A stretch of DNA of 64,000 bases, from positions 58,352,771-58,416,770 of the forward strand of contig CM060198.1 in assembly GCA_030549335.1 (NCBI GenBank). The letters are read 5' to 3'. The translations under genes and the position numbers were made by a program. The stretch is from Pontederia crassipes (lineage: Eukaryota; Streptophyta; Magnoliopsida; Commelinales; Pontederiaceae). This document shows, in pieces, positions 19,035 through 45,055 of the stretch. How positions within the stretch are numbered: position 1 is the first letter of the stretch; every line of letters starts with the position of its first letter. The notes under the pieces were generated by a model. The model was not told the origin of the DNA and did not search any database. It saw only the letters and a program-made list of their open reading frames with translations.

Positions 19035-20213
19035 ATGGCGTCCGTGGTGGCTGCAAATCCTGCACTGGTGGAGGAGATCTTGTCCTGGCTGCCACCGAAA
19101 TCTGTCATCCTCTTCAAGTCCGTCTGCAAGCAATGGCACCACATCTCGTCCACCCCGTTCTTCCTCGCCGCTCACACACGTCGCAACCCCCACAAAATCT
19201 CAGGCTTCCTCGTCAACGTCTCCCCGCTTCATCGGAAGAAGGTGCATGACACTTCCTGCGCACTGGACGGCAGACGTTTCTGGCGCCCTTTCCCTGAACC
19301 ATGCACCTTGGATAACTTTGACGGCGCCTCTATACTCAGGTGCTGCAACGGGCTCGTCCTGGGCATGGGACTCTGCTCGTCAGGGCATCGTTCTCTCGGA
19401 CTTCTCCTCTGGGTGTGCAATCCGACGACCAGACAGCTTAGAACCCTACCAGACGCAGGCACGGAGTACGCCTCTAGTAATGTGTTTCTAGCGTTCGACC
19501 CCTCGCAGTCTGCCAATTACAGGGTCTTGTGCGTGTCTTACTACCAGCCCGAGGACATCAGGGTGTACCGTAGCGAGACCGACACCTGGGAGGCCTTCTT
19601 CGTCCAAAGGCCACGAGTTCTTTGCACTCCGTCCAGGTGGTACAACTGCTGCTACTGCCGCGGAAACGTGTACTGCTTGAAAGACGACGACGGATCTGTC
19701 GTCGCGCTCGACGTCGAGCGGCGCAGCGTCGAGACGATGACGACTCGTCCGCCGCCCACGGATGATAATTTCCAAACCGCCGAGTTCTGTCAGTCGGCGA
19801 GATCGGGGCTCTTGAGGTGGGTTCGTCACAACCTGGGAATATATCACGGCCCGGCGCGTTCTAAAGACGTGGAGATTTACGAGATGAGGAAGGATCAGTC
19901 GGAGTGGATCCCGCTGCACAAGGTTCACGTCCTCGACATGTTGACCGGCGTCCCTCCGCCCACAATGCTGGGCATAGATTTCTTTTTTCCGGTATCTTGG
20001 GATGCAGGCCATACAGCAAGAGAGTTTTTGTTCGTCGAAGGTCAAGAAGATGAAGAAGGGAACGGGGAGGACAGATTAGTTCTTAGATTGAGCTGCTGGA
20101 AGGTTGTGACGTACAACCTCAAAAGCCGCACCCACGATGAACTTTTCACCATTAATTTCCGGCCAGAACTTGTTGCACTGTATGCATGCGCCCACACACT
20201 TGCTGCTCCATGA
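19035..20213 (+). CDS. F-box protein with F-box-associated domain (F-box gene 4)
   Basis: Intact 392-residue gene with one coding exon. The F-box is at residues 9-52 (LVEEILSWLPPKSVILFKSVCKQW), followed by TRRNPHKISGF. The FBA signature LLWVCNPTTRQLRTLPD is near 125-140, a serine/threonine YRSETDTWEAFF strand near 180, the LDVERRS block near 235, an acidic loop EGQEDEEGNGEDR near 340, and the C-terminus CAHTLAAP. Its nearest relative is the gene at 26276-27424. A conserved upstream block and leader intron precede it. Its 3' flank (about 20225-20430) is also found at 31236-31400, behind the rearranged F-box locus. Its role as an SCF substrate adaptor is inferred from the family; no target is known. 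Confidence 0.92.
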   Translation: MASVVAANPALVEEILSWLPPKSVILFKSVCKQWHHISSTPFFLAAHTRRNPHKISGFLVNVSPLHRKKVHDTSCALDGRRFWRPFPEPCTLDNFDGASILRCCNGLVLGMGLCSSGHRSLGLLLWVCNPTTRQLRTLPDAGTEYASSNVFLAFDPSQSANYRVLCVSYYQPEDIRVYRSETDTWEAFFVQRPRVLCTPSRWYNCCYCRGNVYCLKDDDGSVVALDVERRSVETMTTRPPPTDDNFQTAEFCQSARSGLLRWVRHNLGIYHGPARSKDVEIYEMRKDQSEWIPLHKVHVLDMLTGVPPPTMLGIDFFFPVSWDAGHTAREFLFVEGQEDEEGNGEDRLVLRLSCWKVVTYNLKSRTHDELFTINFRPELVALYACAHTLAAP

Positions 20214-21772: not shown

Positions 21773-24551
21773 GGATTTAATGGGAGTCCTCCCCCCTGCC
21801 CCTCCCCCCATCCGCGACCGTCGGATGGGAATCCGACGGGCGTGACTTTGAATTTTAGTTTTTTTTAAATCTATTTTCTTTTTTTTTCGATTTTCTTTTT
21901 TTTAATCCATTTTCTTCACCCTCTCCCTCTCTCTTCTCCCTCCCTCTCTCGCTCTCCCTCTCTCTTCTCCCACCCTCTCTCGCCCGGCGTCGGCGGCCAG
22001 ATCTGGCCGCTCGGCGTCCGATTTGGCGCGGGCGGCCGGATCTGACCGCTCAACGGCTGCCCGCGTCAGATCGGCCGCCTCGGTGGCCGGATTTGGCTGC
22101 CAGCGGCCAGATCGGGCCGCCTCGGTGGCCGATCTGGCGCGGGCGGCCGGATCTGGCTGCCCGCGTCAAATCTGACGAGGGCAGCCGGATCTGGCCGCCC
22201 AGCAGCCCAGCCGCTTTCGCCGAGGCCGCCGTCGCTCTCGCCGAGGCCACCGCCGCTCTCGCCCCTGTCCGCCGCTCTCGTCGAGGCCGCCGCCGCTCTC
22301 GCCCCCTCCGCCGCTCCGCCACCACCCCGCCGCTCTCGTCCGCGCTCCGCCACCACCCCGCCGCGCTCCGCCACCGCCCCGCCGCGCTCCGACCCCGCCC
22401 CGCCACGCTCCGCCCGCCCCGCCGTGCTCCGCCACTGTCCCGCCACGCTCCGCCGTGCTCCGACCGCCCCGCCGCACTCCGCCACCGCCTCGCCGCGCTG
22501 CGCCACTGCCCCGCCGCGCTCCGACCCCACCCCGCCGCGCTCCGACCCCGCCCCGTCGTGCTCCGACCGCCCCGCCGCGCTCCGCCACCGCCCCACCGCG
22601 ACCACGCTCCGACATCGCCGTGCCGGATCCTCGCATGCCGTCGCTGCCCCGACGCCGCCGGACCCTCGCATGCCGCCGCCACACGCTGTCTGTCATGTGA
22701 TTTTTTTATTTATTTTGGATGAATATTGTCGAAGTTTGTGATCGCATCGAGAAGCCTCCTCGATAATGGGAATGTAATTGATTGTTTATGTGTCCATGTA
22801 TGAAAAATGTAATTTGAGAATGTAATTGATTCATGTCGATGTATGAAAAATGTAATTTGAGAATGTAATTGATTCATTGGAATGTGTATGAAATCGACAT
22901 GTAATTGATTCATCGTCTGTCATATGTATCACATATTCGCGGAAGCTCATAACCCTCGGAATGGACGCTTGTATCACATATCTTCGGAACGACGTTTGTT
23001 TTACATAGCCTCAAAACAGACGCTTGTATCACATATATATTCTCGGAACGATGTTTGTATCACATACTCGGAACGACGTCGAGCTCATAACCTTCAACCT
23101 TCACATACGACGACGTACGTTTATATCATATTACAACATCAACATGAATCAATTACATTTCCAAATGTAGAACACATTACAATGAAATTACATTTTTCAT
23201 AAATCAACATCGGCATGAACACATTAGAAACACATTCCAATGAATCAATTACATTCTCAAATTACATTTTTCATACATCGACATGAATCAATTACATTCT
23301 CAAATTACATTTTTCATACATCGACACATAAACAATCAATTACATTCCCATTCTCGACGAGGCTTCTCGATGCGATCACAAACTTCGACAATATTCATCT
23401 TAAATAAATAAAAAAATCACACAACAGGCAGTGTGCGGCGACGGCGGCAATGCGAGGGCCCGGCGGCGTCGGGGCGGGGTCGGAGCGCGGCGGGGCGGTG
23501 TTGGAGCACGGCAGGACGGTGGTGGAGCGCGGCGGGGTGGTCGGAGCACGGCGGGGCGGGGTCGGAGCGCGGCGGGGCGGTGGCGGAGCGCGGCGGGGTC
23601 GGAGCGCGGCGGGGCGGTGGCGGAGCGCGGCGGGGCGGGGTCGGAGCGCGGCGGGGTCGGAACGCGGCGGGGCGGTGGCGGAGCGGTGGCGGAGCGCGGC
23701 GGGGCGGTGTCAGAGCGGTGGGGGAGCGCGGCGAGGCGGTGGCGAAGCGGTGTCGGAGCGCGGCGGAGCGGTGGCGGAGCGCGGTGGGGTGGGGCGGTGG
23801 CGGAGCGGTGTCGGAGCGCGGCGGAGCGGTGGCGGGGTGGTGGCGGGGAGATGGCGAAGCGCGGCGGGGCGGTGTGGTCGGAGCGGTGGCGGAACGCGAC
23901 GGGGAGGTGGCGGAGCATGGCGGGGCAGTGGCGGTGTCAGAGCGGTGCGGTCAGAGCGCGGCGGTGCGGTGCGGTCGTAGCGCGGCGGTGCGGGGAGGTG
24001 AGAGCGCGGCGTTGTGGTGGCGGAGCGGTGCGGGGCGGGGTGGCAAGTGCGGCGGCGGAGTGCGTCTGGGGAGCACGAAGCAGATCTGGTGAGGACGAAG
24101 CAGATCTTCACGGCTCGGATGGTAGGACGAAGCAGATCTGGCGAAGACGAAGTAGATCGACGATGACGAAGCAGTTCTACGCGGCGATGAAGCAGATCCC
24201 GATGACGAGGAACGGCTGCGGATGGCGGACGGACGGCGAGGAACGGTGCAGACAGTGCGGATGGCGTGGACGGCGGACGGACAGCGAGCAACGGTGCGGA
24301 CGACGGACGAACGGCGAGGAACCGCGAGGACGGACGAACGGTCGGCTGCTTGCAGAGAACTAGGGCACAGTGGGAGCGAATGTGAGAGCGAATGTGCTAG
24401 GGTCGAAAGAAAACCAAAAAAACAAAAACCGAAAAATAAAAAGAAGACGGATTAAAAAAAAGAAAACAGATTTTAAAAAAAAAAGCTTTCAAAGCCGTGC
24501 CCGTCGGATCCCCATCCGACGAGCGCGGATGGGGGGAGCCCCATTAAATCC
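21773..24551. mobile_element. giant fold-back Mutator-like element with GC-rich arms
   Basis: Termini are GGATTTAATGGG at 21773 and its complement ending at 24551. The first roughly 100 bp are well matched, including CGTCGGATGGG and GATCCGACGGGC-type blocks. They are flanked by TTATTTAAT (21764-21772) and TTATATAAT (24552-24560), a 9-bp duplication with one mismatch. The complementarity continues inward. Left arm 22090-22690 is built of CCGCCGCGCTCCGCC units, and right arm 23430-24010 of the complementary GGAGCGCGGCGG units. Inside these, 22690-22890 pairs with 23230-23410 (ATTGATTCAT, AATGTAATTTGAGAATG). The loop, about 22920-23200, has short repeats of TCGGAACGACGTTTGTATCA. The long ORFs on both strands follow from the GC-rich triplet-like repeat and do not look like proteins. 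Confidence 0.8.
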
Positions 24552-26275: not shown

Positions 26276-27424
26276 ATGGCGTCCGTGGCGGTGGCTGCAA
26301 ATCCTGAGCTGGTGGAGGAGATCTTGTCCTGGCTGCCACCGAAATCTGTCATCCTCTTCAAGTCCGTCTGCAAACAATGGCGCCACCTCTCGTCCACCCC
26401 GTTCTTCCTCGCCGCTCATGCACGTCGCAACCCCCACAAAGTCTCAGGCTTCCTCGTCAAGCTCTCGCCGCCTCACCGGAAGATGGTGCATGATACTTCT
26501 TGTGCACTCGACGGCGGACGTTTCTCGCGCGCCTTCCCTGAACCATGCACCTTCGATGACTTCCATGATAGCACTATACTCACGTGCTGCAACGGACTCG
26601 TCCTGGGCTTGGGATTCTACTCGTCACTGCGCCGTGTGCCTCGCCTCTGGGTGTGCAATCCAACAACCAGACAAGTTCGAATCCTACCAGACACAGACAT
26701 GGAGTACGCCACTGGCACAGCGGTTCTAGCATTCGACACCGCGCGATCTGTCAACTACAGGGTCTTGAGCCTGTCGCATTTTCATCCCGAGGACATCAAA
26801 GTGTACTGCCGCGAGACCGACGCCTGGGAGGACTTCTTCGTCCAGAGGCCTCGAGTTCTTTGCACTCCTTCCACGTGGGACAACTGCTGCTACGGCCGCG
26901 GAACCGTGTACTGCATGAACGACGACGACGGATCCGTCGTCTCCCTCGACATCGAGCGACGCAGCGCCGACAGGATGGCCACTCGTCCGCCGCCCACTGT
27001 CGGCATGTTCCGGACCATCGAGTTCTGTCAGTCGGCGAGATCGGGGCTCCTGATGTGGGTTCGTCACAACTTGGGACATTACGGCCCGGCTCGTTCTAAA
27101 GTCGTGGAGGTTTACGAGATGAGGAAGGATCAGTCGGCGTGGATCCTGCTGCACAAGGTTCACGTTCTCGACATCTTGACGGGGGTCATTCCGCCGGTAA
27201 TGCCGAGATATTGGAATGCATGCTTTACAGAAAGGTACTTGTCGTTCGTTGAAGGTGAAGAAGATGAAGAAGGAGGGAACGGGGAGGACAGATTACTGCT
27301 GAAATCGAGCTGCAGCAAGGTCGTGGCGTACAACCTCCAAAGCCGCACCCGCGATGAACTGTTCACCATTTGCTGGCCACATATTACACTATATGCATGC
27401 GCCCACACGCTTGCTGCTCCATGA
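26276..27424 (+). CDS. F-box protein with F-box-associated domain (F-box gene 5)
   Basis: Intact 382-residue gene. The open frame extends upstream to 26066, but the ATG at 26276 (MASVAVAANPELVEE) matches the paralogues, and the upstream part contains the predicted leader intron (26156 to about 26269). The F-box is at about residues 11-54 (LVEEILSWLPPKSVILFKSVCKQWRHLSS). The FBA signature LWVCNPTTRQVRILPD is near 125-140, SLDIERRS near 230, the acidic loop EGEEDEEGGNGEDR near 330, and the C-terminus CAHTLAAP. It is the closest paralogue of the gene at 19035-20213, on the same strand and with shared flanks, so the two arose by tandem duplication. Shared 3' sequence ends near 27470. Expected role: SCF substrate receptor, target unknown. 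Confidence 0.92.
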   Translation: MASVAVAANPELVEEILSWLPPKSVILFKSVCKQWRHLSSTPFFLAAHARRNPHKVSGFLVKLSPPHRKMVHDTSCALDGGRFSRAFPEPCTFDDFHDSTILTCCNGLVLGLGFYSSLRRVPRLWVCNPTTRQVRILPDTDMEYATGTAVLAFDTARSVNYRVLSLSHFHPEDIKVYCRETDAWEDFFVQRPRVLCTPSTWDNCCYGRGTVYCMNDDDGSVVSLDIERRSADRMATRPPPTVGMFRTIEFCQSARSGLLMWVRHNLGHYGPARSKVVEVYEMRKDQSAWILLHKVHVLDILTGVIPPVMPRYWNACFTERYLSFVEGEEDEEGGNGEDRLLLKSSCSKVVAYNLQSRTRDELFTICWPHITLYACAHTLAAP

Positions 27425-27474: not shown

Positions 27475-28982
27475 TCAGAATAAGAATAATGGTAGGGTTT
27501 TAGACTTTTCAAGACAATAATGTATTTAAGCATTTGAGACTTTTAAGAATTATGACATCTTATTCTTGGGTTGTGGCATGCTAAAGGTTCTGCTGAGTAA
27601 AAAAATATGATTTCTCATTACCTAAAGAAAAATGATTTCTTGACTCAACTCAACTCATAGTAGAGTTGAGTCCCAAGCTGGCCTACAAGCAATGACTTGA
27701 GGCTCCCATTAATTTTGAGCCTCATATTTTATTTGTTATAGTTAATATGATAAGTCTACTAATAAACAAAAAACCATGAGTATGTTCATTTTTAAAGAAA
27801 TATTAGTTTCATTTCTCATCTATTGCATATCTACTCAAAATTAGGAGACAACAATAAAATATTTTCTTTCTTTCTCCATTTTATCAATTCTTCCAATAAA
27901 TTTATTTATTTTAAGAGACAATAATACATCAACTAATATTATTAATAATCAGATAATGTAATTTGTTTTTTTAAAAATATTTTCTTGACATTGAAAATCT
28001 TTACAATATTATGATAATTTCAATGTTGATATTTTAGTTTTCTAGTAATTATGAGAGAAGTAGTACAAATAAAAAAAATACCCTTATGGTTATAATGAAT
28101 TGTGAAAATGATTTGGTATTTGTCCAACTGCATATATTACTTACAGGATAAGGTTAACCATCTCAGTAATTGTTACTTTAAATTAATAAAATATTATTTA
28201 AGATTCAAGAAATAATTTAACTATTCTATCAACTGAAATGTTGAAACATTAAATAAATATTTTAATAAAAACAGAGAAATAAAATTTAAATATAATATTT
28301 TATTTTATTAAATATAAATTTATTTATACTATTTTTTGTTTTAGCCCTTCAATTGTCTTGAATCGATCCTCACGTTTGTTGTGTGCTAATAGCTCAAAGT
28401 TCGAATCTTCACTTTGATCACAGAATAAATTTTATCTTTCTGGCTCCGAATTAATCGAGTGCTAATAACCCAGGCCGACATAAGAAAAATATGATTTCTG
28501 CAGAAAGACTCCATCGACGTCTTGTTGTCGATTGTTATATTATTGTACAAGTAGATTCAGCTGTTGAGTTTCAGAAGTTTTAAGTTTATTTTACGGGTTT
28601 TTTATATTTCAATTTTTATTGTTGGGCCGATATAATTCTCGCGTGTTCATGTTCCTTGCATTATCACAATAAATAGTTGTAAAAGAGGAAGTCGTAAGTT
28701 CAGATTATTCTGAAATAAAACTTGTGGTTTCTCTCTCTCCTAATTTGTTCTAAATTTTGCGCAGTCCATCACGGAATCGAAAGGAGTCATAAAAATCAAT
28801 ATGGTAGGAGAGCCCCCTCAAAAGGAGTCATCTGAATCCGATTCTTCTTGCTGCAATTATTTGATTGCGTGTTTAAGTAACTTAATCGCCAGTCATTCGA
28901 TTATGGTTTTGGGGTTTTCTGGATTTCTTTCGGAGATAATTCATTTGAATTTGAAACACGATGTCTACTCTCGGATTTCTTC
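27475..28982. other. AT-rich intergenic stretch
   Basis: No gene is recognised. A 10-bp inverted repeat, GACTCAACTC with GAGTTGAGTC, lies at about 27638-27670. An open frame at 28801-29016 runs into the F-box pseudogene in the wrong frame and is not credible. Confidence 0.4.
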
Positions 28983-29454
28983 CGGACGGCGGACGTTTGT
29001 CTCCCGCTTTCCCTGAACCATGCAACTTCGATCACTTCGACGATGGCTGTATACTCAAGTGCTGCAACGGACTCGTCCTGGGCTATGGATTCTACTCGTC
29101 ATGGCGTCTTCCTTGCCTTTGGGTGTGCAATCCGACAACCAGACAGCTTAGAATCCTACCGGACGCGGGCACGGAGTACGGCGCTAGCGATGCGGTTCTA
29201 GCATTCGACCCCTCGCCATCTATCAACTACAGCGTCTTGCGCGTGCCTTACTACCAGCCTGATGTCAGGCTGTACCGTAGCGAGACCAACACCTGGGAGG
29301 CCTTCTTCGTCCAAAGGCCACGAGTTCTTTGCACTCCTTCTATGTGGGACAACAGCTGCTACGGCCGCGGAGCCGTGTACTTCTTGAAAGAAGACGACAA
29401 GATGACGACTCATCCGCCGCCCACGGTTGGCAAGTTCCAAACCCTCGAGTTCTG
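28983..29454 (+). pseudogene. F-box gene 6, headless fragment (plus arm)
   Basis: Reads as the central part of the family, from GGRLSPAFPEPCNFDHFDDG through LWVCNPTTRQLRILPDAGT and FFVQRPRVLCTPS to PPPTVGKFQTLEFC, in one open frame. The whole F-box and about the first 75 residues are missing. A short internal deletion removes part of the region before MTTHPPPT, and the frame then runs into the opposite-strand copy. It is closest to the genes at 19035 and 26276. It forms the left arm of an inverted duplication with 29855-30262. Confidence 0.85.
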
Positions 29455-30261
29455 TGGGGCAGCAAGTGTGTGGGCGCATGCATACAGTGCAACAAGTTCC
29501 GGCCAGAAAATGGTGGGGCGTTTGAGGTTGTACGCCACAACCTTCCAGCAGCTCGATTTCAGCAGTAATCTGTCCTCCTCGTTCCTTTTTTCGTCTTCTT
29601 CATCTTCAACGAACAAGAAGTGTCTTCCTGTAAGGCATGGATCCCCCAAGATATCAGCACATCGATGCGCAACATTGTCGGCGGAGGGGCGACGGTCAAG
29701 ATGTCGAGAACGTGAACCTTGTGCAGCAGGATCCACTCCGACTGATCATTCCTCGTCTCGTAAACCTCCACGACTTTAGAATGAGCCGAGTCGTAATATC
29801 CCATTTTGTGAGGAACCCACCTCAAGAGCCCCGATCTCGTCGACTGACAGAACTCGAGGGTTAGGAACTTGCCAACCGTGGGCGGCGGACGAGTCGTCAT
29901 CTCGTCTTGCGCCGCTCCATGTCAAGGGAGACGACAGATCCGTCGTCTTCTTTCAAGAAGTACACGGCTCCGCGGCCGTAGCAGCGGTTGTCCCACATAG
30001 AAGGAGTGCAAAGAACTCGTGGCCTTTGGATGAAGAAGGCCTCCCAGGTGTCGGACTCGCTACGGTATAGGGTCCTCGGGGTGGTAGTAAGACAGCCGCA
30101 AGACGCTGTAGTTGACGGATCGCGAGGGGCCGAATGCTAGAACCAGCATCGCTAGCGCCGTACTCCGTGCCCGCGTCCGGTAGGATTCTAAACTGTCTGG
30201 TTGTCGGATTGCACATCCAAAGGCAGGGGAAGACGCCATGACGAGTAGAATCCCAAGCCCA

Positions 30262-30262
<1 letters not shown>
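29455..30262 (-). pseudogene. F-box gene 6, headless inverted copy (minus arm)
   Basis: On the minus strand from 30262 down to 29455 it runs from the GLGFYSSW region to the C-terminal ALYACAHTLAAP, with several frameshifts (near 30230, 30065 and 29990, and within the acidic loop). The stop codon is lost at the junction with the plus copy. The F-box part is missing; the homology begins directly beside a TA microsatellite. Bases 29855-30262 mirror about 29085-29454 of the plus arm with high similarity. Confidence 0.85.

Positions 30263-30263
<1 letters not shown>

Positions 30264-30306
<43 letters not shown>
30264..30306. repeat. (TA)n microsatellite
   Basis: About 21 TA units at the breakpoint of the inverted F-box copy. 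Confidence 0.95.
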
Positions 30307-30309
<3 letters not shown>

Positions 30310-30428
30310 GGAGATATAGAGAGAAAATTGGTGGCTTGATTAATTAGAGAATTTTTTAACACCATCAAATGAATGATGATTAATAAAAATACTATGGTGC
30401 TATATAAATAAATAAATAAATATATATG

Positions 30429-31225
30429 AGATTAATGGAGGTGTAGTGAAACTTGGTGTAACACTTTTAATTTAGACCCTTGGATGCGCACACGGTTCAG
30501 ATCAAATATCTGTCAAATGCCCTGATGCGCCCCTCCTCCTCTTCTCCCCACCTAGTGTCGGCGCCGCCCCCAGCTTTGCCATCACCGCCCCCGAGTTCGC
30601 CGTCGCCACTCTCCAGCTTCGCCGCCACCACCCCTGAGTTCGCTGCCGCCACTCCCTAGCTTCGCGCCACTGCCGCACCCCACCGTCCTCGACCAAATCG
30701 AACATTGGCCGGCAGTTGCCGACCCTGGCTGCGAGCGCCGGCACCCCTGCTTGCACCGCCATCCTTACGAACTCGATCGCCGCCCCGATGAATCAGATCA
30801 ACGAGCGGTACCCTCTGCTTGCCGTCGGTGTTGCCGATCTCTCGCCTGATGCCGCCGCTGTCGTCAATCTCTCGTCAGTTGTCGCCGTCGTCGTCAATCT
30901 CTTCTCATCCTCCTCTCCGATCGCCGTCATCGCGCCCTTGCCCGCCCCAACGCGTCCTCTCTCCCATCATCCCCTCTTTCTCCTCCTCTCAGATCGAGAG
31001 TCGTCCCTGCCCCTGCAGATCTGTCGAGAGCCATCTGCCGTTGTCCTGCCGCCGTTCGCCGTCATCCCGCTGCCGCCCGCCACTGGCCGCTGCCATCGTC
31101 GACCGTCGCTCCTGGCTGGGCGCAGAGAGAGGAGAAACAATATGAACCATTGATCTAAAACGGACGGCTCAGATTAGAGCGTTACACCAGGTTTCACCTA
31201 AGAGGGGTTACACCTCCATTAATCC
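30429..31225. mobile_element. TIR element with GC-rich interior (MULE-like)
   Basis: The termini read GATTAATGGAGGTGTA at 30430 and its complement ending near 31225. They extend imperfectly for about 60 bp, with AAACTTGGTGTAACACT matching the complement of AGNGTTACACCAGGTTTCAC. The interior (30510-31130) is GC-rich, unlike the flanks, and has only low-complexity open frames. The terminus resembles the GGATTTAATGGG elements. A target duplication cannot be read because both sides are TA-rich. Confidence 0.6.
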
Positions 31226-31235
31226 ACATATATAT

Positions 31236-31400
31236 ATTTTCTGCTAGATGATCTATTTCTCTTCATTTTTTTTTCTCCTCCAAGAAGTCTCCATAATGAC
31301 GCTTTTTAGTCCAAATTTATGCAACGTTCAACATTCTCTACCTGTTGGTATTTATTTCTATTTTCAGTTCTATTTGATTGTACCTTTTAATGGTTGATTT
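31236..31400 (+). repeat. relic of an F-box gene 3' flank
   Basis: Matches the sequence after F-box gene 4 (about 20240-20430): TGCTAGATG, CCAAGAAGTCTCCATAATGA, TTTATGCAANGTTCAACATT and ATTTATTTCT, in the same plus orientation. It marks where the original plus-strand gene 6 ended before rearrangement. Confidence 0.7.
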
Positions 31401-31461
31401 GCATTCTCTAAAGAAAAGTTTTGATGTGTAGTCACTCCACATTATAATTATTTCAATATTG

Positions 31462-32019
31462 TTATAATCATGGTTAATTGGATCCTGATTCAAATAGTAA
31501 ATCTTATAATCTTACGATCCTCCGGACAGAAAACGATTTCGATTTTACGTGAAGGATTTTAAATGTAGGACTATACATGATATATAGGATCTTACGATCC
31601 TAACGATTCTACGATATTGGTATAAATCTATTTATTCGAATAAAAAATAAAAGTAAACATAAAGTTTCTTGAGAAAATTATATTTAACTATTATATATAT
31701 ATATATATATATATTATATGCTAGTCTTACTTTCATGAATTTTAATATCTTCTAATTATATTATATTATATATTATTATTTTAGTCCTTTTTAAGAATAT
31801 ATCATATTGTCTTTTAGATGATATAAAAAAATATTTATTAGATTTGAAAATATGAATAAAATATTAATAGTTAATGTTTAATTAACTTATATATAAACAT
31901 AATATTTATTATATTTAAAATAATTTTTTATTCATGGGCTAGGATCTTACGATCCTCGATCCTCGAAGTCCCTTACTATCCTACATTGGAAAGCGATCCT
32001 GACAACCTTGATTATAACT
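31462..32019. mobile_element. AT-rich element with GGATCNTACGATCC palindromes
   Basis: Both ends carry clustered GGATCTTACGATCC-type palindromes (31500-31620 and 31940-32000), and the outer sequences TTATAATCATGGTT and AACCTTGATTATAA are inverse to each other. The interior is AT-rich and non-coding. Confidence 0.55.
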
Positions 32020-32084
32020 GTGAGGACGTTCTTACATTATTTACGAAGCATAATATCTAGCTTTAGTTATTTGATTCACCCTTT

Positions 32085-33080
32085 AATATTGTCTTTGCGA
32101 CGCTAACTTAGCATCACAAAATGGCGACGCTAATGCGGCACAAAAACCCGCTGACTATTTGCGTTGTTTTGGCATCGCCACGAGTTTTATAGTTAGTAGT
32201 GACCCCGACGGCTTCCGCTATACCGGCGTTGAAATTTTGTGACGCTAAATTGATGAGGTGCTAAGGCGACACTATGTCGTCGGAAGATGTCTGAGAAACA
32301 CATACAACGCTTAATCGGTGCTATTTTGACACTACTTTGTTGCCGATGTGTTTGAAGAATGTATATGTTAATTAATAAATAGATTAACTATACGTTATGT
32401 ATATTTGTATAACTATATATGTTATATATTTTGACGGTAATTTGTATAAATATATATGCTACCTATACTATAATTTAATGAATAAATAGATTAAATATTA
32501 TATGTGTACCTTCAACACATGTATTCCTACACCATATGTGTGTTACTTATATATACACACACATGTGTGTGTATGTATATACTTTTTATATAGAAAGAAA
32601 GAAACGTTAACAATATATATGTACACTTTATATGTACATATGTAGAAATAATATACATACCTACATGTGCATATATGCACATATGTCAATATATTATGCA
32701 TACAATATATATCATATCTTAATTATAGATATATTATTTTTATATTCTTAATCATGAAATTATGATGGTTGAATTAAGTGATATGATTTCTTATAAGAAA
32801 TTTAAAATATCTCATATTTAGCACCATCGTAGAGACGCAATGGTGTCGTCGTTGCGCCACTCTAGGGACGCAACATCTTTTGATGCTACGGAGCCACTAA
32901 TTGCGTCATTTTAGCGACTCACATGGACGCTAATTTAGAGCTACGTCCACCCCGATTTAGCATCGCCAAATTATGACGCTACATCGACGTCCCAACTGTG
33001 TGACGAAACTTCGACACTAGGTGGTCGCTAATGTTATCTAGCTACTCATTGGCGTCGCTATAGCTCTGACAATACGAGTC
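32085..33080. mobile_element. remnant of a TAGCGTC-family CACTA element (left part)
   Basis: Two zones (32090-32340 and 32820-33080) are dense in GACGCTAA / TTAGCGTC motifs, as at both ends of the element at 40242-45945. Between them lies an AT-rich stretch with TATATGTA-type simple repeats. A matching zone at 37795-37900 lies beyond the inserted element 33420-37723, so one old element was probably split by it. No CACTA terminus survives here. Confidence 0.5.
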
Positions 33081-33123
33081 GCTACATTTGTAGCTGACTT
33101 TTTATTATTCTGACTTAATCGGG

Positions 33124-33275
33124 CACATATACACATATTCATACACATATAAACTTATAATACATATACACATACACATTATCGTCACTTAATCTGGCAC
33201 ATATAGACATATACATACACATACACATATGCATATACATATACATATACATATACATGTAGACTTATAATACAT
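33124..33275. repeat. (CATATA)n simple repeat
   Basis: Imperfect ACATATACATAC repeats. Confidence 0.85.
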
Positions 33276-33789
33276 ACACATAAGACCTATGATTGATGAA
33301 CTCAACATATTAATATAAGCCTATTTGAATATAAAGTTATAATATAAACTTATAATATAATTAAACTTATTTCAAATAACCTTATAAAACATAAATTTAT
33401 AATATAAACATATAATATACACTACAATAAAAATCGTTATTTTCGACGGTCTAAGCCATAAAAAATTGTGAATAATCCGTCGGAAAGAGAAGTTTGTGAC
33501 GGATATTTCGACGAAAGCGAATCGTCAAAAAATAACCGTGGGAAAGTTTTCTCGATTTAAGCCGTGGGAACTTCCCATGGCCCATGGGTTAAATCATGGG
33601 AAGGTACGTGTTTCCCACGGCCTAAGTTGTGATAAAGTAAATTTTTTTTGAAAATTTTAGTAAATTAGGGAAAAAATTAATTACTTTTTATGGACTCAAA
33701 AATTTTAATAAATTAAATAAATTACATGTAAATTTTTGAAAAATAAATAAATTTTAATTTTTAGGTTCACGGTCGTCGTCATCATCTTC

Positions 33790-35546
33790 ATCGTGCTAGC
33801 TATGCATCATTTTCTTCATTTCTTTCCGTTGTCTCAAATGCTTGTTCTCGTTGGTTCATATTCTTGTAGAACCTCTTCTCGAACCTTTTGTTGGACTTCT
33901 TATAGTTGTTGTTCCCATATGTTATCGAATACTTGTCTCACATCTTAACTTGGATAATCGGATATTGATTTCTGGCCATATCCAATATCCACATGACTAA
34001 CGGAGGATCCGAAATCGTAGATGCCCCCTTCTTCACTCCGACATGATCCGTCTATAATTGTCGAGAGGTCAATGGTGTGGCCCTCTCCTGCGTGAACTGT
34101 ATATGGTGCTTGGCTTCTTTAGTTTTATAAGTCTCCTGTAAATTTACAAAGTGACATTTGTTAATACATTTCTAATAGAAGCTACATTATGAAAGTATAT
34201 TCTTACATATGTCTGCCGAGCAAACGATGAAACCCATTCGGAAAATTTTTATGACTTTTCAGAAATATCTCATTTGTGCATGTTTACCTGTCTCTTTTTT
34301 CTACAATTAAAATGAAAGTTAGAACATTAAATTGATTAACGAAAATTATAAAGTTACAAATGTTTACCAGTCTCCTTGCAATTGTCGACGTAGATACACA
34401 ATCACCCACATGCAGGCAGTCGGATTCTCAATTTGTCTTAGCTCTTTCGCACTTGGATTTGTATGTCTTAGTGGACCACTTAGCTAATAACATGGTCCGA
34501 ACTGCCTCTGAAATCCAATCGGGCCATTCTCCTACAGCATGTGCGTCTAACAACATCGAGGATAATTGTATCGAGCACCTAGAATTAAACACCTTCCACA
34601 TTTGCTCTGTGTGCTCGGGTACCCCCACACGCCAGCCTTTAAAGAAAGACATTCTAATTAAAAATAAATAAAAAAATTGTATTGTAAGGATAAAGATGAA
34701 GATTATAACATGAAATTATCTAAATAACATATGTCTTGTAGCATATTGAATATCTCTCCATATAAGCCATGCCTCCATATGCCACTGCCTAATTATCTTA
34801 GTGTAAGCAACTGCAACAGGTTTTGACAGGTAAAACCTGCAAAAACATAATAAGATATTTTTATATAAAAATCTATATTTGTTAAACAGATACTAAATAT
34901 GTATATACAATCACATAAGGCAATAAATACTTCTTATACTAATTTCTCGATGTAGAAGCAACGATGGAGTCTTCCGACATTTTCATCTCCATGTCAGCAA
35001 TGTCAGGAATTTGTGTCCCCATGTCCTCCACTGAATCATCATCCGAAGGAGGATCCGGTACAGCCTGTCGCTCTATTATGCAAATGCCCGTAGGTCGAAC
35101 CATAATGGTCCTCACTCCACCTCGTTCTTTTTTTCTCTGAGTGGCTTTCTCTTTTATCTTCTCTTGACCCTTTTCTCTCCCCTTAATTTTTTCTTTACCA
35201 AAACGAAACATCTACAAAAATATATTTGCATAATAAATTAATTTGTCACTGCACAATAAAAATATAATTGCATCACATTAACCTGAAATTCAACTACATC
35301 CTTAGTCGCATCTTCAGAAATTGAATCATATGTATAACTCGAGAACCAATTTTTAATATCCGGAGACACTTTTGAAAAAGAATAAATTAATCTAAATTTT
35401 TGTGAAATGCTAAATCTATTGAATAAAATAAAATACTCACGAGAAGGTAAAGAATACAGATGAGAGTCACTCTCATCAGGCAACCATTGGTCCAATGATT
35501 TGTGTGGAGATATCATAAACTCTACTTGCATCAATTTGAAAAGCAT
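33790..35546 (-). pseudogene. plant transposase (Transposase_24 / PTTA-En/Spm type) pseudogene
   Basis: Pieces of one decayed minus-strand gene, apparently with introns. 35238-35546 encodes an unrecognised N-terminal part (SPHKSLDQWLPDE). 34939-35211 has a basic then acidic stretch. 34760-34860 reads FYLSKPVAVAYTKIIRQWH. 34428-34652 has the part most like the family, with KWSTKTYKSKCERAKTN followed by a stop where the family has arginine, then SDCLHVGDCVSTS. The C-terminal part (33790-34130) is charged. Stops and frameshifts throughout. The assignment rests on the spacing W-S, K-S-K-K-N-(R)-S and the CACTA context. Confidence 0.6.
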
Positions 35547-36379
35547 AAATCATAACTAAACATGCTTGAGTTACTAATTCATGCTTGTGTATGTCCCTAA
35601 CAATCACATTACTTAAATTACTAAAGTAATCCAACAAGAACTAACTTAAATTAATGAAGTAGATGACAAATAATAATAATAATTTGAAATTGTTATCACG
35701 ATGGTACACGACGGATCTGGCCGTTCATGGCCGTTCACGTCCGGATTTGACCGAGAAGGATGACGACGTCCAGATCTGGCCGTGAACGGGGGTGATGGTC
35801 GTGAACAGCTGTATCTGGCCGTCAACGGCGGTGACGACCAGAAATCGTGAACAGCCATGAACGGCCAGATCCGGCCATTCGCGGCCGTCACAGTCATGAA
35901 TGGTCGGATCGGCCGCGAACGGCTGGATCTCACCGTTCTTGGCAGATGGGCCCTTGACGACCATCACGGCCATGAACGGCGACGAGCGGCGGTCTCCAGC
36001 TAGATCCCTGCATTGGTGGAGAGGGGGAACCACGAGAGGGCCAAGGTGTACTATAGATCGCCAGAGCGGGAGCAGGGTCGCCAGAGTTGCTTCTGCGTCC
36101 TTTGCCAGAGCGGGAACAAGATCGCTGGTCCTACGCCGGAGCGGGAGTGGGAGCAGGTGAGTGCCGGTCCTTCTCCAATCGAGCGTCGGTCGCCGACATA
36201 GGTGAGCAGGAGCAGTCATCGGTCGCCGGAGTGGCAGTAGGTTGCCGGAGGGTGCAGGTTGCCCGAAGGTCGTCGGCGTGTAGGGGAGAATTAAAGGGAA
36301 AAAGAGGGGGCCAGGTTATTTATGGATGGGCTTTCGACGGACTTACGATGCCTCCAACCGTCGCTAACTGTAATATAAA

Positions 36380-37480
36380 ATGAATCTGGAGTTATAATAT
36401 AAAATGTATCGGTAGTTATAATATAAAATATTATTTTATATTTTCCATGGCCGCAGCTGTGGGAAGTTTCGACGGCTACGGCCGTGGGAACACCCTGTAT
36501 ACATTATTATTTTATAAAATATTATAAATTGTATACGTCATTATAATATAAAATATTATTTTATATTTCCCATGGCCGCGGCCATGGGAAGTTTCGACGG
36601 TTAGAGCTGTGAGAACACCCTCTATACATTATTATTTTATAAAACATTATAAAATGTATACATCATTATAATATAAAATATTATTTTATATTTTCCACGG
36701 TCGCAGTCATGGGAAGTTCCGATGGTTGGCCGTGGCACGCCCTCTATGCATTAATTATTTTATAAAATATTATAAAATATATCCGTAGTTATAATATAAA
36801 ATATTATTTTATATTAGCCATGGCCGCAGCCATGGGAAGTTCCGACGGCTGCGATCGTGAGAACGCCCTATATACATTATTATTTTACAAAATATTATAA
36901 AATATATACATTTTTATAATATAAACTATTATTTAATATTTTCCACGATCGTAGCCGAGGAAGTTCTGATGGCTGGGGCGGTGGGAACGCCCTATATACA
37001 TTCTTTATAAAATATTATAAAATGTATACGTCGTTATAATATAAAATATTATTTTATATTTCCCTTGACCACAGTCATGGGAACTTTCGACGGTTGCGGC
37101 CGTGAAAAGTTCCAACGACTGTGGTCGTGGGAACGCCCTCTTTTAAAATGAATCTAGTGCTAACCGTATAAAATATTATTTCATATTTCCTACTGATGCA
37201 GCCATGGAAAGTTTCAATGACTGCGGCCATGAGAAGTTCCGACGGTTGAGGCCGTGAGAACACTCTCTTTTAAATGTATCTGTCTTTATAACATAAAATA
37301 TTATTCTTTATATTTCCCACGGCTGCAGCCACGCCACAGCCGTTGGAAAGCCATCTCGTATAATATAAAATATTATTTTACTTTTCCCATGGCTGTAGCC
37401 GAGGAAAGTTCCGACGGCTGCAGTCGTGGGAACTCTATCTTCTTAAGATGATCGGGGCCTTATCATTTAAAATATTATTT
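36380..37480. repeat. tandem array, about 120-bp unit, copy B
   Basis: Same unit as 965-1735, with eight to nine copies. Units near the right end are shorter and more diverged. Every unit contains a CCATGGCCGC(G/A)GCCATGGG-like palindrome. Confidence 0.85.
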
Positions 37481-40241: not shown

Positions 40242-40710
40242 CACTACAAGAAAACTGTTGAATAGCGACACAAATTAATGTCGCCATATTACACGACTCT
40301 AAATTGACGCTAATAGCGTCACAATAGCGCCGTCATTGGGTCGACAAGAGGAGACGCTAAGTGCCTCTCTATAACGTTCATATAGCGTCTCATTAGCGTC
40401 ATAAAAAGTAGAGGCTAAGTGAGATGCCAAAGCGACGCAATTTCGGCACTATTATAACGGGCGAAAACTAATAAACACGTGGTAGATGGTAGCGCTATAT
40501 TGATGTCGTAGGACTGCGACGCTACATTAGCATCACAAGCGAAGTGACGCTAAATCGACGAAATGTAAGAGTCGATATTAGCACTAGCTTCTTGCGTTAC
40601 ATTGGTGTCGCAAGCATGAGACGCTACGTAGCGTCACTATGACCATGACGCTAAGTCAACGTTAATATCATATAATGTATATATAGTATAGTCGACGCTA
40701 AGTCTCTTAC

Positions 40711-43700
40711 GCTCTTTTTAATATAGTCTATATAATACTAACTACACTATATTATACTATATAATACTATATTATATAATATTATATTACACTATACTAT
40801 ACTATACTATACTATATATTATACTAAACTATATTATACTATATTATACACCATGCTATACTATATTATTCTATTATATAATATACAAAAGTTAATATGC
40901 CATGCTATACATATATTATACTCTAACTCCCAAATTTCAAAATAGGAGGAATAGTGCTTCTTCATTTTTTAAGAAATTCAAATGGAGTTTGCCGGAGATC
41001 CGACTGTTGGATCATCACAAAATTTATATCTCCCATAGAGCACTGCAACACAGATTTTTCAGCATTTTTTGACGATTATAGGAGGTCTTACGGTAGAGTT
41101 AAGAAACTAGGAAAAAAAAGTCTTTCGACGGTCTTTGACGTGAGACTAGTGGGAATTAGTCGAAATAAAAATTATGGACTCGTAGAGTTTGACACGAGCT
41201 GTCCATCCCGCATAAGAATCGCGGCGATCGGAGGTCGGAAGAAATTCAATAAAATGGGAAAATTTCGGAATAGAAGCGGTTGGTTCTCCGCAGTCCTAGA
41301 TCGGATTTTTATCGAAAAATAGGCATTTCTCTCCCTCTTTTAATGCGTGCAACATGCCTTCTCCCCTCCAACATGCCTTCTCCCTCCTATGCTTTCTCCC
41401 TCGGACGTTCTCCCGCTGACGCATCCACTGCCACCTGCCTCCGTGATGTTGTCTGCTGTGCCACCGCCTGCCTCCCTGACGCCGTCTGCTGTCGCCACCG
41501 CCACCGCTTGCCTCCTGAGGCCGCCACCGCCTGCCTCCTTGACGTGTGACGTCGTCGCCACTGCTACGCTCTTTTTAATATAGTCTATATAATACTAACT
41601 ACACTATACTATACTATATAATACTATATTATACAATATTATATTATACTATACTATACTATACTATACTATACTATATATTATACTAAACTATATTATA
41701 CACCATGCTATACTATATTATTCTATTATATAATATACAAAAGTTAATATGTCATGCTATACATACATTATACTCTAACTCCCAAATTTCAAAATAGGAG
41801 GAATAGTGCTTCTTCATTTTTTTAAGAAATTCAAATGGAGATTGCCGGAGATTCGACTGTTGGATCATCACAAAATTTGTATCTCCCATAGAGCACTGCA
41901 ACACAGATTTTTCAGCATTTTTTGACGATTTTAGGAGGTCGCACGGTAGAGTTAAGAATCTAGGAAAAAAAGTCTTCCGAATGTCTTTGATGTGAGACTA
42001 GTGGGAATTAGTCGAAATAAAAATTATGGACTCATAGAGTTTGACACGAGCTGTCCATCCCGCACAAGAATCGTGGCGATCGGAGGTCAGAAGAAATTCA
42101 ATAAAATGGGCAAAATTTCGGAATAGAAGCGGTTGGTTCTCCGCGGTCCTAGATCGGATTTTTATCGCAAAATAGGTGTTTCTCTCCCTCTTTTAATGCC
42201 TGCAACATGCCTTCTCCCCTCCAACATGCCTTCTCCTTCCTATGCTTTCTCCCTCCGATGCCTTCTCCCGCTGACGCGTCCACTGCCGCCTGCCTCCGTG
42301 GTGTTGTCTGCTGCACCACCGCCTGCCTCCCTGACGCCGTCTGCTGTCGCCACCGCCTGCCTCCTGAGGCCGCCACCGCCTGCCTCCTTGACGTGTGACG
42401 TCGTCGCCACTACTACGCTCTTTTTAATATAATCTATATAATACTATCTACACTATACTATACTATACAATACTATATTATACTATACTATACTATACTA
42501 TACTATACTATACTATACTATACTATACTATACTATACTATACTATATTATACTATATATTATACTAAACTATATTATACTATATTATACACCATGCTAT
42601 ACTATATTATTCAATTATATAATATACAAAAGTTAATATGCCATGTATACATACATTATACTCTAACTCCCAAATTTTAAAATAGGAGGAATAGTGCTTC
42701 TTCATTTTTTAAGAAATTCAAATGGAGTTTGCCGGAGATCCGACAGTTGGATCATCACAAAATTTGTGTCTCCCATAGAGCACTGCAACACAGATTTTTC
42801 AGCATTTTTTGATGATTTTAGGAGGTCGTACGGTAGAGTTAAGAACCTAGGAATAAAAGTCTTCCGACGGTCTTTGACGTGAGACTAGTGGAAATTAGTC
42901 GAAACAAAAATTATGGACTCGTAGAGTTTGACACGAGCTGTCACCCCGCACAAGAATCACGGCGATTAGAAGTCGAAAGAAATTCAATAAAATGTGCAAA
43001 ATTTCGGAATAGAAGCGGTTGGTTCTCCGCGGTCCTAGATCGGATTTTTAGCGAAAAATAGGCGTTTCTCTCCCTCTTTTAATGCCTGCAACCATCCTTC
43101 TCCCCTCCAACACGCCTTCTCCCTCCTATGTTTCTCCCACGGACGCCTTCTCCCGCTGACGCGTCCACTGCCGCCTGCCTCCGCGGTGTTGTCTGCTCCG
43201 CCACCGCCTGCCTCCCTGACGCCGTCTGCTGTCGCCACCGCCACCGCCTGCCTCCTGAGGCCGCCACCGCCTGCCTCCTTGACGTGTGACGTCGTCGCCA
43301 CTGCTATGCTCTTTTTAATATAGTCTATATAATGCTAACTACACTATACTATACTATATAATACTATATTATGCAATACTATACTATACTATACTATACT
43401 ATACTATACTATACTATACTATACTATACTATACTATACTATACTATACTATACTATACTATATATTATACTAAACTATATTATACTATATTATACACCA
43501 TGCTATACTATATTATTCTATTATATAATATACAAAAGTTAATATGCCATGCTATACATACATTATACTCTAACTCCCAAATTTCAAAATAGGAGGAATA
43601 GTGCTTCTTCATTTTTTAAGAAATTCAAATGGAGATTGCCGGAGATCCGACTGTTGGATCATCACAAAATTTATATCTCCCATAGAGCACTGCAACACAG

Positions 43701-45055
43701 ATTTTTCAGCATTTTTTGACGATTTTAAGAGGTCGTACGGTAGAGTTAAGAACTTAGGAAAAAAAGTCTTCCGACGGTCTTTGACGTGAGACTAGTGGGA
43801 ATTAGTCAAAACAAAAATTATGGACTCGTAGAGTTTGACACGAGCTGTCCACCCCACACAAGAATCGCGGCGATCGGAGGTCGAAAGAAATTCAATAAAA
43901 TGAGCAAAATTTCGAAATAGAAGCGGTTGGTTCTCCGCGGTCCTAGATCAGATTTTTATCGAAAAATAGGCGTTTCTCTCCCTCTTTTAATGCCTGCAAC
44001 ATGCCTTCTCCCCTCCAACATGCCTTCTCCCTCCTATGCTTTCTCCCTCGAACGCCTTCTCCCGCTGACGCGTCCACTGCAACCTGCTTCCGTGGTGTTG
44101 TCTGCTGCGCCACCCCCTGCCTCCCTGACGACGTCTGCTGTCGCCACCGCCACCCCCAGCCTCCTGAGGCCGCCACTTCTGCCTCCTTGACGTGTGACGT
44201 CGTCGGCACTGCTACGCTCTTTTTAATATAGTCTATATAATACTAACTACACTATACTATACTATATAATACTATATTATACAATACTATACTATACTAT
44301 ACTATACTATACTATACTATATATTATACTAAACTATATTATATTATATTATACACCATGCTATACTATATTATTCTATTATATAATATACAAAATGTTA
44401 ATATGCCATGCTATACATACATTATACTCTAACTCCCAAATTTCAAAATAGGAGGAATAGTGCTTCTTCATTTTTTAAGAAATTCAAATTGAGTTTGCCG
44501 GAGATCCGACTGTTGGATCATCACAAAATTTATATCTCCCATAGAGTACTGCAACACAGATTTTTCAGCATTTTTTGACGATTATAGGAGGTCTTACGGT
44601 AGAGTTAAGAAACTAGGAAAAAAAGTCTTCCGACGGTCTTTGACATGAGACTAGTGGGAATTAGTCGAAACAAAAATTATGGACTCGTAGAGTTTGACAC
44701 GAGCTGTCCATCCCGCATAAGAATCGCGGCGATCAGAGGTCGGAAGAAATTCAATAAAATGGGCAAAATTTCGGAATAGAAGCGGTTGGTTCTCCGCGGT
44801 CCTAGATCGGATTTTTATCGAAAAATAGGCATTTCTCTCCCTCTTTTAATGCCTGCAACATGCCTTCTCCCCTCCAACATGCCTTCTCCCTCCTATGCTT
44901 TCTCCCTCGGACGCCTTCTCCCGCTGACGCGTCCACTGCCGCCTGCCTCCGTGGTATTGTCTGTTGCGCCACCGCCTGCCTCGCTGACGCCGTCTGCTGT
45001 CGCCACCACCACCGCCACCGCCTGCCTCCTTGTCGTGTGACGTCGTCGCCACTGC
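40711..45055. repeat. five tandem units of about 0.85-0.9 kb
   Basis: Units begin at GCTCTTTTTAATATA: 40711, 41568, 42417, 43308 and 44216. Each unit runs: AT-rich leader, a TACTA-type pentanucleotide microsatellite of variable length, a conserved 350-bp block (CCGGAGATCCGAC, GTTGGATCATCACAAAATTT, AGATCGGATTTTTA), then a GC-rich coding-like block (CTGCCTCCNTGACGCCGTCT). Length differences come mainly from the microsatellite. Similarity among units is very high, so amplification is recent. Confidence 0.9.
42440..42560. repeat. (TACTA)n pentanucleotide microsatellite
   Basis: The longest uninterrupted runs of ACTAT/TACTA are here and at 43375-43465. Shorter runs lie in the other units of the array. 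Confidence 0.9.

Follow-up and report, generated by a model that had tools for sequence, protein, structure and literature searches.

A truncated F-box gene inverted repeat in Pontederia crassipes, carried in three copies, that may be a decaying hairpin-capable pseudogene

In the window, the whole stretch of 64,000 nucleotides analysed here (C16:58352771-58416770), two 5'-truncated copies of an F-box gene are joined in inverted orientation at about position 29455, and the resulting arms are predicted to fold into a long stem. We interpret this inverted repeat, with moderate confidence and from the pattern of its sequence changes, as a decaying pseudogene that would form a hairpin RNA if transcribed, and that appears to be drifting, not kept for silencing. 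If it silences at all, the effect is probably weak, a side effect, or confined to this lineage.

It has been proposed that plant small-RNA genes first arise when the gene they target is duplicated in inverted orientation. In the present cluster, one inverted repeat can be traced in three states, with its promoter lost (c1, the copy inside the window), with an arm lost (c2), and with both kept (c3), and a related F-box cluster on another chromosome, C15, has relatives that carry no inverted repeat (X' and X''). If c3 is transcribed and diced, the set allows drift loss to be tested against retention, as well as the silencing of one subgenome's cluster by the other; if it is not, the locus is an ordinary inverted pseudogene.

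Structure of the repeat and its flanks

The relatives used for comparison and the features of c1 are listed below, in window coordinates except where a contig or X' is named.

19035-20213, plus strand: g19035, intact gene of 392 aa with F-box and KIB1-4 domains over the Pfam cut-offs
26276-27424, plus strand: g26276, intact gene with the F-box over the Pfam cut-off and KIB1-4 not
C15:1682838-1684010: X', intact single-orientation relative of 390 aa
C15:1686819-1687370 and 1690438-1690945: X'', closely related to the gene from which the repeat derives, split into two pieces with 3.07 kb between them
28978-28982: breakpoint, at which about 1.8 kb of c3 sequence is absent in c1
28961-29779, plus strand: open frame of 272 aa, running via arm 1 into antisense loop sequence
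28985-29453, plus strand: headless F-box gene fragment containing arm 1, corresponding to X' 244-659 and 703-757, the intervening 42 bp being deleted in frame
29076-29455, plus strand: arm 1, pairing with 29847-30264
29455-30264, minus strand: headless antisense gene fragment (X' 335-1170), frameshifted, holding the loop and arm 2
29456-29846, minus strand: loop of 391 nt, the antisense 3' part of the gene
29847-30264, minus strand: arm 2, pairing with 29076-29455
30264-30308: (AT)n tract adjoining arm 2
30432-31222: probable transposable element with terminal inverted repeats TTAATGGAGGTGTA, its ends judged by eye
31237-31405, plus strand: weak remnant of the gene's 3' flank, with two partial matches to relatives' flanks

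The arms are complementary in five ungapped blocks of 87-96% each; 25 of the 375 aligned bases differ (6.7%, gaps being extra), and with gaps included BLAST gives 83.8% identity over 420 columns. The minus-strand copy ends beside the stop codon, and most of its indels are common to c3, while the plus-strand copy is truncated at its 3' end as well, by about 413 bp. The 272-aa frame gave no Pfam match at E 0.01, neither F-box nor KIB1-4 being recovered from it, and a search of the whole window against Rfam returned no match over the gathering score. Bacterial sigma-70 promoter models were also scanned on the window, and their output was disregarded.

Most of this anatomy had been anticipated by the sequence-only reading, whose arms (29085-29454 and 29855-30262) are right to within a few bases, whose loop of about 400 bp measures 391 nt, and whose two headless F-box copies lying tail to tail are both 5'-truncated by alignment to X'. 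Its surviving 3' flank at 31236-31400 is borne out weakly: positions 31237-31379 match the sequence that follows g19035 at 69%, and 31315-31405 match the flank of the g19035 duplicate at 81.5%.

On the 5' side, the gap at 28978/28982 takes the promoter, the ATG and the first 66 bp of the gene from c1, and part of the missing sequence of about 1.8 kb is retained in c2. The probable transposable element adjoins the repeat; it is present in c2 and partly deleted in c3.

Three copies, their origin and age

A search of the genome (1.13 Gb, 43 contigs) gave 33 matches to arm 1, and opposite-strand neighbours were found at three places, all on C16 and picked out of the list by eye: c1 and the two copies that follow.

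C16:58346481-58347458: c2, about 35 kb upstream of c1
C16:58453544-58454875: c3, about 72 kb downstream of c1, on the other strand

In c1 and c2, the match to a query spanning the junction runs across it. At the junction of c3, arm 1 is short of about 22 bp and the match begins at query position 16; the inverted structure of c3 is established from comparisons other than this match. None of the C15 matches of the junction query crosses the junction.

The three copies differ in what they have lost. Both c2 and c3 keep the ATG and the first 66 bp of the gene, followed by a common 177-bp in-frame deletion, and their F-box is mostly deleted, with the first 22 codons only. A 42-bp deletion in arm 1 is common to c1 and c2 and absent from c3, and, as a point against simple decay, the arm 1 frame stays open in c1 and c2 through the 177- and 42-bp in-frame deletions; arm 1 of c3 has a 37-bp deletion and a frameshift. 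In c2, arm 2 is mostly gone, with 118 bp left, and upstream of the ATG there are only 45- and 26-bp pieces of the last 580 bp found in c3. The upstream region of c3 is retained, at 79% identity to X' over 467 columns and 86% to X'' over 228. Because c3 is the only one of the three to keep the ATG, the upstream region and two long arms, this copy, which lies outside the window, appears on its anatomy a better candidate for a hairpin RNA than c1.

Two duplications surround these copies. A large inverted segmental duplication of C16 holds c3 and relates window 18363-52836 to C16:58438057-58463045 (85287-110275 in window-based coordinates), with 87-95% identity in pieces and a spacer of about 32 kb. 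The direct duplication that made c2 relates C16:58346544-58354527 (window-based -6226 to 1757) to window 28982-37179, at 91-99% in pieces.

Between c1 and c3, arm 1 differs at 5 of 320 positions and arm 2 at 8 of 416, against 25/375 between the two arms of c1 and 22/353 between those of c3. The arms cluster by arm, not by copy, in pairwise differences as well as in the tree, which indicates that the inversion formed once, before the segmental duplications; homogenisation between the arms of one copy was considered and is not seen, the arms grouping by arm in both analyses. We propose that a 3' portion, taken from the F-box gene itself or from a neighbouring copy almost identical to it, was joined tail-first and inverted inside the gene. 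Segmental duplications then multiplied the inverted repeat within one chromosomal cluster.

Over the repeat, c1 and c3 differ by 18 substitutions in 1222 positions, which at the substitution rate of 6.5e-9 quoted for grasses in PMC10284860 places their split at about 1.1 million years. The arm-versus-arm difference of 6-7% converts at the same quoted rate to roughly 5 million years, a figure that is not a clean age of the inversion. The distance of X'' from each arm is 5-7%, equal to that between the arms, so that all three lie at almost the same distance from one another, and the tree node that joins arm 2 to the remaining genes, X'' excepted, is supported at 53%. Since X'' is as far from each arm as the arms are from each other, the arms may stem from two copies that had diverged beforehand, and the inversion could be younger. 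Between g26276 and its C15 counterpart, dS is 0.094.

Divergence, folding and matches to intact genes

The repeat is less diverged between c1 and c3 than its flanks (18/1222 versus 66/1807, p = 2.7e-4, and 27/630, p = 3.5e-4), which could reflect constraint, sequence exchange among the copies, or a faster pace of change in the AT-rich flanks. Measured against g19035 and its duplicate, its rate is similar to that of the synonymous sites (5/272, p = 0.59) and to that of the whole gene (14/1179, p = 0.60). The loop, at 1.3% of 392 positions, and the arms, at 1.6% and 1.9%, diverge alike. Between c1 and c3, 11 arm pairs have changed; none of them shows a compensatory change, in a sample of low power, and four of the 11 still pair in both copies. 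Constraint on the stem was rejected as an explanation, the arms and loop diverging alike and at the synonymous rate of g19035 and its duplicate, in a comparison with low power for weak selection. A stem kept by selection is expected of an established regulator and not of a young one; the synonymous-like rate and the 0/11 compensated pairs, again at low power, gave no sign of one.

The closest copies are not the same inside and downstream of the repeat: c1 and c2 are closest inside it (6/801) but not downstream, where c2 and c3 differ at 40/1654 positions versus 159/5405 and 89/1572 for c1 and c2. This difference suggests that the copies have exchanged sequence. Drift, whether or not accompanied by such exchange, would explain the divergence pattern, at a power that is low for weak selection.

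The predicted folding energy of positions 29076-30264 (c1) is -851.7 kcal/mol and that of c3 is -848.0 kcal/mol, with -416.4 kcal/mol for c2 (821 nt), whereas genes of similar length give -406.0 (X') and -399.3 kcal/mol (g19035). The pairing thus exceeds chance, and the gene-derived inverted arms have the structure of a hairpin locus, being predicted to fold into a long stem. RNA transcribed from such a copy would form a stem of about 350-420 bp, from which Dicer-like enzymes could cut small RNAs matching the genes of the cluster; c3 would be the likeliest source of the transcript, and c1 would require read-through, for example from g26276.

Exact 21-mers of the antisense arm of c1 occur in g19035 (17 of 398), X' (17 of 398) and g26276 (3 of 398), and those of c3 in the same genes at 53, 41 and 3 of 396, respectively. 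None occurs in two more distant genes of the window, at 2560 and 6777 on the minus strand, and when g19035 was shuffled once, arm 1 had no match in it at up to 4 mismatches. Substitutions between the arms of c1 and the intact window relatives amount to 14.5-16.3% for g19035 and 17.5-18.2% for g26276, and the claim in the sequence-only reading that they resemble these two genes closely was therefore overstated. Across five intact genes, the divergence is 9.5-19.5%; because wheat INHIBITOR OF WAX1 (Iw1) is described as acting at >80% identity (PMC8005961), such values would be compatible with targeting. The idea that the locus could regulate the cluster through siRNA is borne out as far as the hairpin goes, by the folding energies and the shared exact 21-mers; a regulatory role is not supported by the sequence of c1, in which the promoter and ATG are lost, the rate is synonymous-like and 0 of 11 pairs are compensated.

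Alternative readings and known systems

A working natural RNAi locus like Iw1, in which c3, and perhaps c1 by read-through, would be transcribed and diced to 21-24 nt and would lower related F-box genes on both homoeologous chromosomes, is in our judgement unlikely. Iw1 is an inverted repeat >80% identical to its protein-coding target, with a predicted long hairpin, in the account of PMC8005961; the F-box repeat resembles it as a gene-derived inverted repeat with a predicted hairpin, and differs in that Iw1 has demonstrated small RNAs and target cleavage, whereas c1 is promoterless and its hairpin RNA is a prediction. In favour of such a locus, c3 keeps its ATG, upstream region and two long arms, has a stem energy of the same order as c1 (-848.0 kcal/mol) and shares 53, 41 and 3 exact 21-mers with g19035, X' and g26276; the repeat is also less diverged than its flanks, and Iw1 is effective at the identity quoted above. 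However, the repeat changes at the rate of synonymous sites with no compensatory changes, its loop is conserved as much as its arms, arm 1 of c3 is short of 37 bp and about a further 22 bp, and of the other copies c1 is promoterless and c2 mostly armless.

A narrower proposal, which we hold to be improbable, is that c3 is a subgenome-specific source of RNAi: one copy of a duplicated hairpin pseudogene, whose copies differ in promoter and arms, would silence F-box/KIB1-4 relatives on both homoeologues of a recent allotetraploid.

Silencing by read-through, as at rice Lgc1, is a very doubtful reading. Here, g26276 transcripts would extend 2 kb into the antisense copy, and either g26276 would pair with that copy or the arms with each other. 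Lgc1 is likewise described as having two members of one family tail to tail (PMC10647759), but it goes back to the deletion of 3.5 kb between two glutelin genes, and its silencing is shown, whereas in the F-box repeat truncated copies are directly joined. The geometry would suit this reading, since g26276 (26601-27421, plus strand) converges on the antisense copy (29455-30264), with 79% identity over 842 columns and 2034 bp between the two; against it, termination must fail across 1.5 kb of intergenic sequence, and pairing would face competition from arm 1, which is the better match.

It is just as improbable that c2 (227 aa) or c1 (272 aa) still gives rise to a shortened protein, with the inverted part incidental. 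The two in-frame deletions leave frames open, and arm 1 has three nonsynonymous and no synonymous changes between c1 and c2 (dN/dS for arm 1 of c3 was left out, having been computed across a frameshift). However, the F-box is mostly deleted, its first 22 codons surviving in c2 and c3 and that start being absent from c1; the tail is antisense-coded, the c1 frame lacks a Pfam match and c3 is frameshifted. Lastly, although assembly has difficulty with inverted repeats and with duplications that are nearly identical, an inversion created by an assembly misjoin is scarcely credible, because the same structure recurs in three diverged, differently flanked copies with common arm-specific substitutions.

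The reading of a drifting, hairpin-capable pseudogene can also be set beside other plant systems. The soybean CHS cluster (I locus) and the aquaporin NIP6-1 repeat, the latter with 621-bp arms about 1 kb apart, are reported in PMC3534067 as gene-derived inverted sequences near or related to a gene family, as here; both have mapped siRNAs and CHS also a phenotype, whereas siRNAs from the F-box repeat are a prediction. Proto-miRNA loci are likewise long, imperfect, hairpin-forming inverted repeats as presented in PMC13128112, but their definition includes transcriptional competence and dicing, for which the F-box repeat is a candidate; the authors of that work state that there is little evidence for large effects of such mixed small-RNA populations. 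Among the open-licence papers listed, none pointed by title or start of abstract to an F-box or KIB1-4 hairpin locus.

Base rates were taken from two sets and are weak. Genome-wide, with 150 KIB1-4 matches scored of 231 candidates, 8 pairs less than 5 kb apart share a strand and 0 lie on opposite strands; this list, in which apparent chromosome pairs are seen, is without the present repeat, g26276 and X', and misses degraded or diverged cases. In 228 kb of non-random sequence, inverted pairs with arms of at least 100 bp, at least 78% identity and less than 3 kb between them gave six rows, which are c1, c2, c3, the convergent pair that includes g26276, and a GC-rich repeat unrelated to these (two overlapping rows).

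A second inverted repeat, unrelated to the first and partly of GC-rich low complexity, relates window 22287-22887 to 23230-23835, with 82% identity over 631 columns. At window positions 40708-45055, a unit of roughly 0.85 kb is repeated in tandem about five times, with about 90-95% identity between the repeats.
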